Shown one piece after another: positions 4,283 to 36,706 of a DNA stretch of 47,774 nt. The translations under genes were made by a program, and so were the position numbers. Positions within the stretch are counted from its first letter, which is position 1, and each line of letters starts with the position of its first letter. The stretch lies in IMG/VR virus record IMGVR_UViG_3300020202_000021, positions 1-47,774 of that record; one strand, 5' to 3'. Source of the DNA: a virus. Below the pieces are notes generated by a model. It did not search any database. It had not been told where the DNA came from and saw only the letters and a list, made by a program, of their open reading frames with translations.

Positions 4283-5833
4283 CTACTCCTCTCCAGCCTC
4301 TTCGGCCCCCTGCATGCGCTCCCGGATAACCTCGAGAGCTGCATCTCGCCAGCCGATGTAATCCCGGCCGCCGTTGGAGTCGATGCCCTTGAGTTCGAGG
4401 ACCATCTGGGCCGGCATGAGCTTGTCCACCGTGAACATCCGCATGATCAGGTCGGCTTCGTCCGACGTATAGGTGTACTTGGAAGGCAGGGTTCGGTTTG
4501 CCTTCCCGCTGCCTTCCCGCTGCCTTCCCGTGATGTCGATCACCTCGGCTTGGAAGGCTCCCGGAAGGCTGGTGGAAGGTACTTGGAAGGCACCCGTGTA
4601 AGGCATCTGACCTGCGGAAACGTCCTCCAGGCCCGCTGCAACCTGCGCCACGTCGTTTCGGGTCACAAGGGGCATCTGGACCCGGGGGTACTCCACCCGC
4701 CTCGTCATCAGGTAGCAGCAGCCGTCCGGGTACTTCCGGATGTCCACATTGACCTTTTCCCCAATGGCATACCGGGCTTGGTCAGGACGGCTCCGGAAGA
4801 CGAACGTCGTGGTCGCCGCGTCCCTGACCTCGCCGAGCTTCGAGATGGTCCCGAGCTGGGCGAAGAGAGCAGCGTTGATGTTGACCTTGCGACCCTCGAC
4901 GCCGATCGACATGAGCGCCGCCTCGATCCGCTTCGCTTCCTTGGAGAGCATCAGCTTCGTGATCTCATCGACGGTCACGAAGATGGGCGAGCGATCCTTG
5001 TTTCCTGCCTTGTACCGCTCGTCGATGATGGCGACAGCATGCTCGAGCATGTCGGCGATCTCAGCCGGGGACTGTGCCACCGACCGCGTGCGGGACGACA
5101 ACGGGCTCAGCATCGCCGCCAGCGAGTCGTCATCCCCAGCGTGCGGGTCACCGATCATCAGCCGACCGCCGGACATCACTGCCTGCAGGCCGAGGCTCGT
5201 CGCTGCGATCGTCTTGCCGGAACCTGACTGACCGACGATCACCATGGAGCCGAGATCCTCCTTCCACCGGGCCCGCACCGTCTCCTCCGGCGTCTCGCCG
5301 ATATACGGCACCGACCCAGGGACGATCACACCTTCACGCAGCAGGTCGATGAACAGCCTCGACTTGATCGGCTCAGAACCTTCACCAACTGGTGTGACAT
5401 CGATAGTCGGCTGGTTCGGGAGCATCGATTGAGAGACGGTCTGGACACCCTCAGGAATGATCCGAGTTGCACGAGCGAGAGCTTCCCGCTGCGCTGCTGG
5501 GATAGAAGTGAGGCCGAGCCCCGACTGACGAACTGCCTTGCGAGACACCGGCACGATGCCATGCTCGTCTGGCTTGACGGTTCGTGCGCGCTCAACTGCC
5601 CCCCACGCTCCTGCTCCAATGAGCACCATGACGGCAACAACGATCACAGCGCCGAAGATTTCCGCCACTAGTGGATGTGCGTGAAGATAGCTCCACACAA
5701 ACAGCACGAGTGCGACGGTGACGACCAGCACGGCCAGCCCAGCGAACAGAGCCAGAGGACTGATGCTCTGCTCCGAGGTCCCCGCTCCACCGCGGGGACG
5801 GGGCTGCTTTGGCGGATGCACAAAGAGGTCCAT
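4283..5833 (-). CDS. Membrane-anchored FtsK/HerA-like DNA translocase ATPase
   Basis: A 516-residue P-loop ATPase. Two membrane helices (about residues 26-50 and 54-80) are followed by a cytosolic region, Walker A GQSGSGKT (201-208), a DPH motif after the next strand (GDPHAGDDD, about 228-235), and Walker B IFVTVDE (284-290). The last 70 residues look like a small helical (winged-helix) domain. This layout fits the FtsK/SpoIIIE-TraB-HerA family of membrane-tethered DNA pumps. I chose ATG 5833, 2 nt after a tiny upstream gene. Such a pump is unusual in a lytic-looking phage; it could move DNA during entry or segregation, or serve plasmid-like maintenance or transfer. Confidence 0.8.
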   Translation of the reverse strand: MDLFVHPPKQPRPRGGAGTSEQSISPLALFAGLAVLVVTVALVLFVWSYLHAHPLVAEIFGAVIVVAVMVLIGAGAWGAVERARTVKPDEHGIVPVSRKAVRQSGLGLTSIPAAQREALARATRIIPEGVQTVSQSMLPNQPTIDVTPVGEGSEPIKSRLFIDLLREGVIVPGSVPYIGETPEETVRARWKEDLGSMVIVGQSGSGKTIAATSLGLQAVMSGGRLMIGDPHAGDDDSLAAMLSPLSSRTRSVAQSPAEIADMLEHAVAIIDERYKAGNKDRSPIFVTVDEITKLMLSKEAKRIEAALMSIGVEGRKVNINAALFAQLGTISKLGEVRDAATTTFVFRSRPDQARYAIGEKVNVDIRKYPDGCCYLMTRRVEYPRVQMPLVTRNDVAQVAAGLEDVSAGQMPYTGAFQVPSTSLPGAFQAEVIDITGRQREGSGKANRTLPSKYTYTSDEADLIMRMFTVDKLMPAQMVLELKGIDSNGGRDYIGWRDAALEVIRERMQGAEEAGEE

Positions 5834-5835
5834 GG

Positions 5836-5910
5836 CTATGGCCTTACGAAGACCAGCACCAGTGCGCACGCCAGCGCGGCAATGAGCAACCCCCAGGCTC
5901 GACCGTTCAC
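5836..5910 (-). CDS. 24-residue membrane micropeptide
   Basis: A very short frame, VNGRAWGLLIAALACALVLV then FVRP, forming a single hydrophobic helix with a basic end. Its GTG overlaps the TGA of the upstream zinc-ribbon gene (GTGA), and its TAG ends 2 nt before the ATG of the FtsK-like ATPase. The tight coupling on both sides and the good membrane helix argue that it is real. It may modulate or help insert the ATPase. Confidence 0.45.
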   Translation of the reverse strand: MNGRAWGLLIAALACALVLVFVRP

Positions 5911-6023
5911 CCGCACTTCGAGCACACCACCTTCGTGCCCTTGATGATCTTGGCGTTACCGGGGTGGATCACTGACGTCTTGATGCGCTTGAGCGTTCCT
6001 CCGCAGATGCACTTCTCGCCCAT
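5907..6023 (-). CDS. Zinc-ribbon micro-protein
   Basis: A 38-residue protein beginning MGEKCICGGTLKRIK and ending VVCSKCG, giving CxC and CxxC zinc-knuckle pairs. A strong GGAGG lies 6 nt before the ATG. It is the first gene of the leftward operon running into the FtsK-like ATPase and is transcribed from the divergent promoter region at 6049-6086. Role unknown; it may be a regulatory or nucleic-acid-binding peptide. Confidence 0.6.
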   Translation of the reverse strand: MGEKCICGGTLKRIKTSVIHPGNAKIIKGTKVVCSKCG

Positions 6024-6048
6024 CGGGTCCTCCGTTCCCTTCGATCCG

Positions 6049-6086
6049 TTGCGTAGGATCGTACTACACCAGTAGACTACACACAA
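6049..6086. promoter_or_regulatory. Overlapping divergent promoters
   Basis: Leftward: TTGTGT (6086-6081), a 17-bp spacer, then TACGAT (6063-6058), leading to the zinc-ribbon/FtsK-like operon. Rightward: TTGCGT (6049-6054), an 18-bp spacer, then TAGACT (6073-6078), leading to the wHTH regulator gene. The two promoters occupy the same DNA. A near-palindrome GTAGACTAC (6072-6080) and outer arms CGTTG/CAACG could be operators. The adjacent regulator at 6130 is the natural candidate to bind here. Confidence 0.5.
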
Positions 6087-6129
6087 CGCAGGATGGAGAC
6101 GGGACACCAGCGGACAGATCGGAGAGAGG

Positions 6130-6609
6130 ATGCGCAAGACACCGAACGTCGTCGTAGTGCTCGCCGCAATGCGCGACCTGGAGGCGCCGTACGGTATGCA
6201 GATCGCTCGCCACACCGGGCTCAAGGATGAGACGGTATACCGGGTCCTAGAGCGGCTGCAGCTAGAGGGCTGGCTAACCTCACAGCTAAGTGGTCGGCTA
6301 CGTCGTTACCAACTCACACAGCTAGGCAAGTCGTGGGCCGCTGCGTGGACGCAGCCAGTCGGCGACGAGCCTGTGCGTGTCCGGCGGCGCAGCGACGAGG
6401 TCTGGGTGATCCGATGGCTCGGGACCAACTGGCCCGCCGTCGAGGCGTTCTGCAGCTCCGCTGTCCGCCGAGATGGCGACGTGCTGTGGATCCGCACCGT
6501 CGATGACAACGAGGAGTCTGCACGGCTCGGCTGGTGGATCGTGGCCGGCGTGCACAACCGCTACCCCATCCCACCCGACGTGTTTGACGCCACGTACGAG
6601 CTTCCATAG
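6130..6609 (+). CDS. PadR-like winged-helix regulator fused to a phage domain
   Basis: A 159-residue protein. Residues 5-75 form a winged helix: YGMQIARHTGLKDETVYRVL as the recognition region, then EGWL and RRYQLTQLG as the wing, close to PadR-type repressors. Residues 88-159 resemble a small domain found alone in many actinophage proteins: RWLGTNWPAVEAF, WWIVAGV and PPDVFDATYE. The fusion could join DNA binding to ligand or partner sensing. RBS GGAGAGAGG lies directly before the ATG. It likely controls the divergent promoters at 6049-6086. Confidence 0.7.
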   Translation: MRKTPNVVVVLAAMRDLEAPYGMQIARHTGLKDETVYRVLERLQLEGWLTSQLSGRLRRYQLTQLGKSWAAAWTQPVGDEPVRVRRRSDEVWVIRWLGTNWPAVEAFCSSAVRRDGDVLWIRTVDDNEESARLGWWIVAGVHNRYPIPPDVFDATYELP

Positions 6610-33613: not shown

Positions 33614-33712
33614 GGCCCTATTGTGCCGTATCTCGGCTCTCCAAGGGCTTTCTCGTCGGTTCTGGGGGCAATGAGCGGGGTCTGAGGGCACGCACGCGGG
33701 GAGTCCGGCCCG

Positions 33713-34030
33713 TCAAAAGTCTCTGTAGCGCTTCCAAGCCCTCGTCAGACTGTCATTCGGCGGCACCTGTCTCAGCCCCAGCTCCCGCATAACCGATATG
33801 AGTTCGTCCGCGAGAGAAGCCCGGATCGCGACTGCGTAGAGTGCAAGCTCGTGCCGGGACACCGGACAACCAGCCAGCTCGGCGACAAGGTCCAACACAT
33901 CCTGTTCCGGTCCAATCAGTCTCCCTGTCCATGCGCCGATCACAGCTGCTTGTCTCGAAGTCAACCGGTTCCACACTGGTTCCAGCCAAGACTCAAGCGG
34001 AGTTGGCACGTCCGCCTCTGTGGGGTCCAT
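33713..34030 (-). CDS. Hypothetical helical protein
   Basis: A 105-residue protein (MDPTEADVPTPLESWLEPVW...). Residues 22-45 (LTSRQAAVIGAWTGRLIGPE) and 55-90 are helical and could contain an HTH-like unit, but no convincing match is visible. GGAGGGG lies about 9 nt before the ATG. It is the first leftward gene after the AT-rich island and may be expressed from within it. Confidence 0.55.
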   Translation of the reverse strand: MDPTEADVPTPLESWLEPVWNRLTSRQAAVIGAWTGRLIGPEQDVLDLVAELAGCPVSRHELALYAVAIRASLADELISVMRELGLRQVPPNDSLTRAWKRYRDF

Positions 34031-34076: not shown

Positions 34077-34267
34077 CAACCGTCGGCCAACCGTCGGCAG
34101 AGTGTCAGCGTCGGCATAGGTATGAGAATCCCAGACTGTGAATAAACCTGTTTATAAGTATCTACACTATATGTGTGAGGGTTCATTGGACCTATTTAAT
34201 CTATATTACCGTTTTTTCCTAGGACCTTTTTCATTCTCTTTGCCGACACTGCCGACGTTTTGCCGAC
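34077..34267. other. AT-rich island flanked by GTCGGC/GCCGAC repeats: candidate replication origin
   Basis: Left flank: a perfect tandem 11-mer CAACCGTCGGC (34077-34087, 34088-34098) and a third GTCGGC at 34110-34115. Right flank: GCCGAC at 34242, 34251 and 34262, the inverse orientation. The 125 bp between are strikingly AT-rich for this genome and hold a palindrome ATAAAC-CT-GTTTAT (34142-34155). Iteron-like repeats around an unwinding element, next to the primase-helicase gene, suggest an origin. A complex promoter/operator is the main alternative. Confidence 0.5.
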
Positions 34268-34273
34268 GGTCGG

Positions 34274-36706
34274 TCACTTCACAAGAACGTACATGTACGA
34301 ATCTTTACGCTGTCCGGGCTCTTTCCGGATTGTCCCTCTTGAGATGAGTACCGCCAGCGTCTCCGTAGCTTCCCGCCCTCTCGCATGGCTGAGCGGGCCT
34401 CGCATCAGGTCTCGCTCCGTAGCCTGCCCGCCGTGTTTTTCGAGATGCCGGAGCACGGCTCGCTCGAGCGCCGGGGAAGCCACGATGTACGTTTTCACCG
34501 GTAGCACGTCGCCCATGAACAGGTCCCGGGCCTGCTCGGCGTAGAAGGCCCACAAGTCCTCAGCCCGGTCCACGCCAGCCGACGTCAGCCCGTATTCGCC
34601 CCCACACACCTCCCACATCGCTGACAGCACGATGGCGATGCGGGCAAGGTGGGTCTGACCCTTCCCGAAGTACCCTTCGAGCTCCTCCGGTGCGTCTCGC
34701 TCAAGGTCGATCGCGCGCTGTCTGGCCTCCGTGAGACACCCGGGTACCTCGCAGACGACCTCAGCCTCCTTGAGCTCGTACAGGGCCCGCACGATGCCCT
34801 CCCACGTCCCCCGCACGTTGCGAGGCACGTCCGGGGTGTCGGCCGCCACCGGCACCTTGGGCAGCACGCAGTACAGGAACCGCTCAGCCAGCCCGTCCCG
34901 CACTGCTGTGAGTCCGGCGAACACGTCCGGCTGCACGCCGCCGATCACCGACACGCAGGGATTCTCGACCACGATCCGCTTGCGTGAGACCCGGAACACA
35001 TCGAGCAGGTCCCCGTTCCATGCCTCCACCCACCGCTGCCGGTCGTTGCCCTTCCCGCCCTTGTACTGCCCCATCGAGTTGAGCCAGCCCACGAGCTCGT
35101 CGGCCACCATGACCACGCCTCGCGGGTGGGCCTTGAGCGCCAGCGCGAGCACCTCCGTCGTGACGTCCTTCATCAGTGGCGATTCCAGTTGTGGCTCCGG
35201 CGTCTTGCCCGGCGTCTCCTCCCACAGCTCATGCTCACGCTGCCAGGATGCCGCCCGTTCCTTGTGGATTGCCTCAAGGGGTGCCTTGGCGGCCCGCAGC
35301 GCCGGTGACTTCCGTCGGCTCACGTCCCCCACCAGCCCCGCGTAGATCCCCGGCCGCTCGATCCACCCGCCTTCGCCCTTCACGTCGAGCCAACGTGTCC
35401 GACCGATCACCGATGCCGCTACCGCCAACACGCACGTCCCGACCGCCTCTGGCGCCACACACACGCTCGAGGCCGTCTGCTCGATGAACTCGGCTACCTG
35501 CCCCGGCCACACTCCCAGCGGGTACTCGACATGAGGCCGCGCGCCATTGGGGGACGGCACGGTCGGTGTCCGCTCTGCTACAGTGATCTCACCAGAGTCC
35601 CCCTCTGAGCTGTTTGAGAGCCCCTTTCCCCGGGGGCTCTCTCTCTTGTCCGGGGGCCGTTCCGGGATGTCATCCAATGTTGTAAAGGTGGTCCCAATCG
35701 CTTTCGAGGTCACGTTCTCGTTCGATGTCGTCGTACTCCTCGTCCCAGAGCTCGCCCCATCCGTCGCATGTGGAACATCCGCTCCCGAATCCGTCGCAAT
35801 CTGGGCATGGGATGTCTGCCATTGCTCACTCCTCTCTGGTATCTGCCTCGGCTGCCGCTTCCCCGCTTCAAGCCCTGATCGGATCGTGGCCGCTCCCTTT
35901 CGCATGCCCGGTCCATTGCCAGGCTCAAGAGCATCCCACGCATCAAGAAGGGCTCTCACGACGACTGACTCTGGTAGTGCTCCGGCTCCCACCAGTTGTC
36001 CTAGCGCGAAGGCCGCCGTGTTGAGTGTGTCGTTCTGCGCCCCGTCGCCGGCATCAAGCACTCGTTGCACTTCGCCATTGAGGGCTGCGCGGGCATACGC
36101 TTCCACGCTCTCTGGTGTTCTGATCGTGGGCACTATGGGTTTCGGAGGAGCCTCATACGGCCGCTCTCGCACCAGCTCCACCAGCCACGCCGGTGCATCG
36201 GCAATCGGGACCGCCTCGTCCACCCACTCGTAGACCGCCCCCGACGCGTGCTCTGAAGGGGGCGCCAGCACGTAGCCCCCGTCCCCCCGTACGTCGAGCT
36301 CCGGCCCCACCTTCGACCGGTTGCGGACCGTGACTCCATCGGGCACCCAGAACCACAGATGTACGCCCCGGCCGGTGCGGACCATCTTCGTGACAGGCAG
36401 TTCCCGCTCCTTCAGGAACTCCCAGCCCGCCTCTCCGTCCACGTCGACGACGAACATCCCATCGCCCGTTCGGACCCCGATGTTCGCCTCCGGCCACTTC
36501 GCCCACCAGGCCATGACCTGCGCCGGGTCCGAGGTGGCATCGTGCAGCCCGTTCTTCGTCCGCGGGTGCTTGGCGGCCGTCTTCGTCTGCGGGTAGAAAC
36601 ACAGCGGATCCCCGCAGGAGCATCGGCCGTCCCCGGCGTGATGATGGAGTGGGAAGACCAGCCACCCGCCTAGAGCGAGCCCCAAGGCCGCCTCCGGTCG
36701 GCTCAC
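34274..36706 (-). CDS. Primase-polymerase / DUF3987 helicase fusion
   Basis: A replication protein of 810 residues. N-terminal Prim-Pol: ALGGWLVFPLHHHAG, NGLHDATSD, WWAKWPEANIGVRTGDG, catalytic VVDVD (D88, D90) and RGVHLWFW (H116). A CSCGDPLC zinc knuckle (29-36) is inserted in the first loop. After a Ser/Thr-rich linker (about 290-390) comes a DUF3987 ATPase: GVWPGQVAEF, a Walker-A-like GDVSRRKSPA (460-469), and Walker B VVMVADE (531-537). The C-terminus has a winged-helix look (HLEKHGGQATERDLMRG). GTG 36706 overlaps the methyltransferase stop (GTGA). Likely initiates phage DNA replication. Confidence 0.85.
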   Translation of the reverse strand: MSRPEAALGLALGGWLVFPLHHHAGDGRCSCGDPLCFYPQTKTAAKHPRTKNGLHDATSDPAQVMAWWAKWPEANIGVRTGDGMFVVDVDGEAGWEFLKERELPVTKMVRTGRGVHLWFWVPDGVTVRNRSKVGPELDVRGDGGYVLAPPSEHASGAVYEWVDEAVPIADAPAWLVELVRERPYEAPPKPIVPTIRTPESVEAYARAALNGEVQRVLDAGDGAQNDTLNTAAFALGQLVGAGALPESVVVRALLDAWDALEPGNGPGMRKGAATIRSGLEAGKRQPRQIPERSEQWQTSHAQIATDSGADVPHATDGASSGTRSTTTSNENVTSKAIGTTFTTLDDIPERPPDKRESPRGKGLSNSSEGDSGEITVAERTPTVPSPNGARPHVEYPLGVWPGQVAEFIEQTASSVCVAPEAVGTCVLAVAASVIGRTRWLDVKGEGGWIERPGIYAGLVGDVSRRKSPALRAAKAPLEAIHKERAASWQREHELWEETPGKTPEPQLESPLMKDVTTEVLALALKAHPRGVVMVADELVGWLNSMGQYKGGKGNDRQRWVEAWNGDLLDVFRVSRKRIVVENPCVSVIGGVQPDVFAGLTAVRDGLAERFLYCVLPKVPVAADTPDVPRNVRGTWEGIVRALYELKEAEVVCEVPGCLTEARQRAIDLERDAPEELEGYFGKGQTHLARIAIVLSAMWEVCGGEYGLTSAGVDRAEDLWAFYAEQARDLFMGDVLPVKTYIVASPALERAVLRHLEKHGGQATERDLMRGPLSHARGREATETLAVLISRGTIRKEPGQRKDSYMYVLVK

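Follow-up and report, generated by a model that had tools for sequence, protein, structure and literature searches.

A probable replication origin of mirror-image iterons beside a PrimPol-DUF3987 gene in a tailed phage

Why does a GC-rich phage genome carry a short AT-rich island framed by facing repeats, right beside the gene for its primase-helicase? We addressed this question for positions 34077-34267 of a 47,774-bp IMG/VR virus record, the whole of which we call the window. Sequence comparison points to the island as the very probable starting point of DNA replication in this phage, and the enzyme and its start site seem to move together as a set. The enzyme contains DUF3987, an uncharacterised domain present in many mobile elements; it is a predicted helicase whose DNA target is not described in the literature we found.

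Architecture and setting of the island

The island consists of two facing arrays of short repeats around an AT-rich core. All six hexamers of the original prediction, three GTCGGC on the left and three GCCGAC on the right, are in place. GTCGGC occurs at 34082, 34093 and 34110 of the left array (34077-34115, plus strand), two of the copies within an exact 11-bp tandem (34077-34098; CAACCGTCGGC), and a degenerate fourth unit, GTCAGC at 34104-34109, keeps to this 11-bp register. The right array (34242-34267) is its mirror image, with minus-strand GTCGGC at 34242-34247, 34251-34256 and 34262-34267. Taken together the arrays make up an inverted repeat of 25 bp whose arms, 142 nt apart, are 88% complementary; the spacing of the third unit differs from one arm to the other.

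Between the arrays lies a candidate duplex-unwinding element (34116-34241). It spans 126 bp at 33% GC against 63.6% for the window overall, bearing out the expected stretch of about 125 bp of AT-rich DNA unlike the GC-rich remainder. The window's lowest-GC 50, 100 and 120 bp fall within this core, as do its least stable 60 bp (-67.8 kcal/mol against a mean of -93.9, s.d. 4.2). The palindrome described in the island is present, but it is modest and imperfect (ATAAACCTGTTTAT). The core also holds the window's sole match to the DnaA-box consensus TTATNCACA, a DnaA-box-like TTATTCACA at 34137-34145 on the minus strand, which at 0.26 matches expected is weak evidence.

The island sits at the 3' end of a replication gene. 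The proposed initiator, a PrimPol-DUF3987 primase-helicase, is encoded on the minus strand at 34274-36706 (Pfam Prim-Pol, 1e-40; DUF3987, 1.7e-39), and its PHROGs matches are DNA polymerase/primase and helicase. Its stop codon occupies 34274-34276 and the array begins 6 bp beyond it; the island does abut this gene as first noted, on the gene's 3' side rather than its 5' side. Directly after the island, which lies 5' of it, comes a small DUF7736 gene (33713-34030, minus strand), with the large terminase further on. GC skew, total and at third positions, is uninformative: it varies gene by gene and shows no switch at the island. It places the origin nowhere else either, so the observation that was to count against the original prediction, a skew locating the origin at another site, does not apply. 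BLASTN searches with the island, near and distant, matched no phage, and the exact iteron pattern was absent from the viral contig collection. The PrimPol protein had no relative in that collection, and a genome contig collection yielded unconfirmed candidates only.

Exchange and recurrence of gene and array

Of the arguments particular to this phage, the strongest for reading the island as an origin is a cassette swap in a related phage. The nearest relative we found is L002, a 47,146-bp IMG/VR record. Its terminase shows 86% amino acid identity, and its DNA similarity to the window runs to position 36651 and resumes at 33711, so that PrimPol, island and the DUF7736 gene are all exchanged. 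About the first 20 codons of PrimPol survive in L002 (MSRAEAALGLARAGWLLFP against VSRPEAALGLALGGWLVFP); beyond them an unrelated RepA/DnaB-like helicase, with AAA_25 and DnaB-N matches, takes the place of PrimPol. At the 3' end of this helicase is a mirrored array built on the unit CCTTCYA, with a 9-bp period, three units per arm and 94 bp between the arms. A homologue of the helicase in L004 (54% identity) has a third, different unit in the same place. On these comparisons the exchange took gene and array as one, and the conservation sought in related phages is one of layout beside a swapped replication gene, the sequence itself having changed. At the exchange point, L002 6586-6711 retains a PrimPol N-terminal remnant of 41 codons, the first ~20 of them homologous.

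The swap also bears on whether the repeats are a regulatory operator. A regulator, possibly the initiator, would bind them and control DUF7736 and the late genes beyond it, which come next on the minus strand. Initiators often autoregulate, and the island lies upstream of 33713-34030, which has a good ribosome-binding site. However, a promoter scan found no sigma-70-like promoter within the island, and an operator does not need a long AT-rich core. In L002, moreover, some of the array falls within the helicase gene, and what follows downstream is a different gene from the window's. The array accompanies the replication gene and not its downstream neighbour, and we consider an operator unlikely.

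Mirrored arrays recur at the 3' end of related genes. We collected DUF3987 relatives from phages, 80 bacterial loci and Alphaproteobacteria; in most of the Bacteroidales relatives and several others, the stop codon is directly followed by tandem 8-9 bp units and then by the same units in mirror image. Collapsing the relatives at 60% identity gave 34 clusters, one of them the window's and two the helicases of L002 and L004. A first, simple mirror score failed to separate two-unit arrays from background, and a periodicity requirement was then added. By this test, devised after examples had been seen and applied in the same form to all controls, periodic mirrored arrays stood at the gene's 3' end in 18 of the 34 clusters, against 4/34 gene-interior, 3/32 further-downstream and 16/1020 (1.6%) shuffled segments. 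Arrays with at least three units per arm were found in 9/34 clusters and in none of the controls (0/34 gene-interior, 0/32 further-downstream, 0/1020 shuffled).

About half of the 34 clusters have no periodic mirrored array at the 3' end. Other phage PrimPol or RepA-like genes (L132, L133, L135-L138; Rhizobium phage RHph_X2_26, Pseudoalteromonas H40/1, Micrococcus Kurnik, Gordonia Agatha, Microbacterium Schubert and an archaeal virus) showed no array obvious by eye, so the 3'-array rule is not universal. Several relatives depart from the common layout in other ways. In L024 and L068 the tail of the DUF3987 gene differs or is cut and the array is missing, as if the usual tail and array had been removed at one point; L068 also lacks the wing of the winged helix. 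L095 has, just 3' of the DUF3987 stop codon, a perfect ~24-bp inverted repeat with no tandem units at the place where its relatives have iterons. The alphaproteobacterial L124 carries mirrored AACTGAC/GTCAGTT units 3' of its DUF3987 gene around a spacer of 82 bp, part of it AT-rich; of the layouts we saw, this one comes closest to the long core of the window.

Rarity of the array and competing sites

Facing repeat clusters are rare in the window. GTCGGC alone is common (89 copies in the window against 61 expected), but triples of it are clustered at the island and nowhere else in the window, which answers the concern that such clusters might be equally dense throughout the genome. For any hexamer, a triple within 40 bp joined by a mirrored triple within 300 bp of the first occurs only at the island and at 4500-4591. 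The combination appeared in none of 100 dinucleotide-preserving shuffles of the whole window.

The second site raises the question of whether the active origin lies elsewhere, leaving the 34.1-kb island auxiliary or inactive. The array at 4499-4592 has an 11-bp period, with TGCCTTCCCGC three times and then four GGAAGG units; with three and four units per arm it is as improbable as the island and could compete with it as an origin. On the other hand, it lies in coding sequence, has a GC content of 62-64% and lacks an AT-rich core, and its host gene encodes a motor ATPase without a primase or replicative-helicase match. That gene (4283-5869, minus strand) is FtsK/HerA-like, with N-terminal hydrophobic segments, and a search for relatives of it found none. 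The array falls in its 3' third, where it encodes the linker before the C-terminal region, and is possibly a recognition or loading site for the motor, like clt or KOPS. We judge an active origin at this or another site to be distinctly improbable.

Pairing of the arms offers a further explanation, that of a hairpin in RNA or single-stranded DNA acting as a transcription terminator or as a single-strand origin for priming. The arms do pair strongly when single-stranded (z of -6.0 on the plus strand and -3.7 on the minus strand), and L095 offers a long perfect inverted repeat that lacks tandem units. But any inverted repeat yields such z-scores, no T-run follows the stem on the PrimPol strand, and the loop would span 126-142 nt. 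Each arm is composed of tandem 9- or 11-bp units for which a stem has no need, and these, together with the unequal third-unit spacing of the window's arms, argue for protein sites rather than a stem. A terminator scan and Rfam gave nothing relevant at the island, and we regard a hairpin as very unlikely. Although a 25-bp, 88% complementary inverted repeat bounds the island, we find it scarcely credible that it is the remnant of a transposon-like element or MITE, or a site for attachment or partition: the record contains a single copy of the exact tandem, no target-site duplication is seen, the neighbouring proteins tested include no transposase, integrase or ParA, and arrays of different units turn up at the same position relative to the gene in unrelated genomes.

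Reader, mechanism and related replicons

We hold with good confidence that the island is the replication origin of this phage and that it forms, with the adjacent gene, a self-contained initiator-origin cassette working as proposed below. The joint swap in L002, the recurrent 3' arrays and the tracking of repeat unit by protein helix all support the original prediction of an origin recognised by a phage initiator.

The PrimPol-DUF3987 protein itself is the predicted reader of the repeats. Between the two candidates first suggested, comparison and analogy favour it over the 33713-34030 product, since SaPI Rep and SCCmec Cch2 bind through their own C-terminal domains (PMC7581432) and since the repeat unit in relatives tracks the helicase protein's own C-terminal helix. 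The two CACTTT groups of Bacteroidales, a and b, have cores 66% identical and share the helix MKERAFKDFLSRN in 9/10 sequences. The TGTCG group has a core 69-70% identical to theirs, a different unit and a helix that is mostly MKERT[FL]QRFLNDN. Likewise, SER-VM is common to the two GCAGT groups at 49% core identity, yet the TCAGT group, at 60% core identity to the first of them, has T[DE]R. Among these Bacteroidales relatives the unit thus appears to track the recognition helix of the C-terminal winged helix better than it tracks the helicase core, a covariation that is suggestive only because it involves few groups rather than many independent events. In the window protein, a Pfam search for a winged helix found no match in the C-terminal region, which was modelled below pLDDT 50. 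By analogy, we infer a winged-helix iteron-binding domain in its C-terminal ~66 residues (34274-34474, minus strand).

Structural modelling suggests that the DUF3987 region is an MCM-like AAA+ helicase. Kazlauskas et al. (2018, PMC5862659) had predicted a helicase function for DUF3987 and a role in origin recognition for the C-terminal winged helix of such PrimPols. An AF2 model of the C-terminal half built from 34 sequences (pLDDT 71.7, pTM 0.75) found its best PDB matches among MCM replicative helicases, a remote fold similarity at E about 1e-4 and TM-scores of 0.3-0.45. A sequence search of the PDB gave no match, and single-sequence AlphaFold of the whole protein was of no use (pLDDT 40).

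These elements suggest how initiation could proceed. The PrimPol-DUF3987 protein would bind the GTCGGC iterons via its C-terminal winged helix, with each of the two mirror-image arrays holding one assembly. Since these arrays point towards one another, the proposal has two helicase rings loaded in opposite orientations. The 126-bp core would melt between them, the two helicases would move apart, and the fused primase-polymerase domain would start strands, giving bidirectional replication. We infer binding, melting, two-ring loading, bidirectionality and the island's status as main origin by analogy, drawing on the MCM-like model and on the SaPI/SCCmec and Kazlauskas et al. literature.

The locus is most likely an initiator-origin cassette resembling those of SaPIs and SCCmec, carried by a tailed phage. 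SaPIs are staphylococcal phage satellites whose origins have an AT-rich segment beside their iterons. SaPI Rep reportedly binds iterons directly downstream of its own gene by its C-terminal domain, apparently as two hexamers (PMC7581432), and the same mode of reading is proposed here. As in SaPIs, the window has a proposed initiator helicase gene whose candidate origin lies immediately 3' of it, multiple short iterons and an AT-rich element. SaPI Reps contain DUF927- or D5-type helicase domains (PMC7581432), whereas the window protein joins PrimPol to DUF3987 with its MCM-resembling fold; the window also differs in its tailed-phage genome, 126-bp AT-rich core and mostly 11-bp spacing. The working principle matches that of SaPI/SCC replicons and the helicase family differs, which makes the locus a variant and not a member of the SaPI Rep family. 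The SCCmec Cch2 system, in which binding needs direct repeats (PMC7581432), likewise has the repeats of its putative origin just 3' of the helicase gene, but these are three 5-nt direct repeats, its helicase is D5-like and its primase-polymerase is separate.

Other replicons share fewer features with the window. PrimQH and PrimPol-PV1 proteins also fuse PrimPol to DUF3987, with a C-terminal winged helix proposed for origin recognition (PMC5862659); the word iteron is absent from that paper, and the window's mirrored arrays would provide the target it lacks. Our search, confined to the open-access literature, found no account of iterons beside DUF3987 genes. Iteron plasmids of the Rep_3/RepA type place a dedicated Rep beside direct iterons, whereas the window's are mirrored and the neighbouring proteins tested have no Rep-family Pfam match. 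DnaA boxes are a further feature of such plasmid origins; on this point the window offers only the single consensus match at 34137, which is weak evidence. Lambda-O type origins have iterons within the initiator gene, while those of the window follow the stop codon.

The locus may exemplify a wider class. DUF3987 helicases and some RepA-like ones across phages, satellites and bacterial mobile elements may constitute a single large class of initiator-origin cassettes that can be swapped, a proposal we regard as evenly balanced. An MCM-like helicase would read mirror-image iterons at its own gene's 3' end via a C-terminal winged helix and load two rings head to head without a separate loader, and the unit would evolve with the recognition helix to give many mutually orthogonal origins. 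A predictable origin 3' of the gene, with a readable unit for each clade, would open origin recognition, helicase loading and the specificity of recognition helices to direct testing. It would also provide a simple rule for locating origins in PrimPol phages and satellites, and possibly a set of orthogonal replicons.

A candidate origin of related design occurs in a culturable phage. In Rhizobium phage 16-3 (L134), as in the window, a PrimPol-ATPase gene, p101, is followed by low-GC intergenic repeats. The 357 bp at 6014-6370, 3' of p101, contain 12 exact GCGTGACA/TGTCACGC octamers in both orientations, and none occurs elsewhere in the 8.8-kb locus examined. The two orientations are interspersed there, in contrast to the window's two facing blocks, and p101 is annotated as similar to a RecA-family ATPase.
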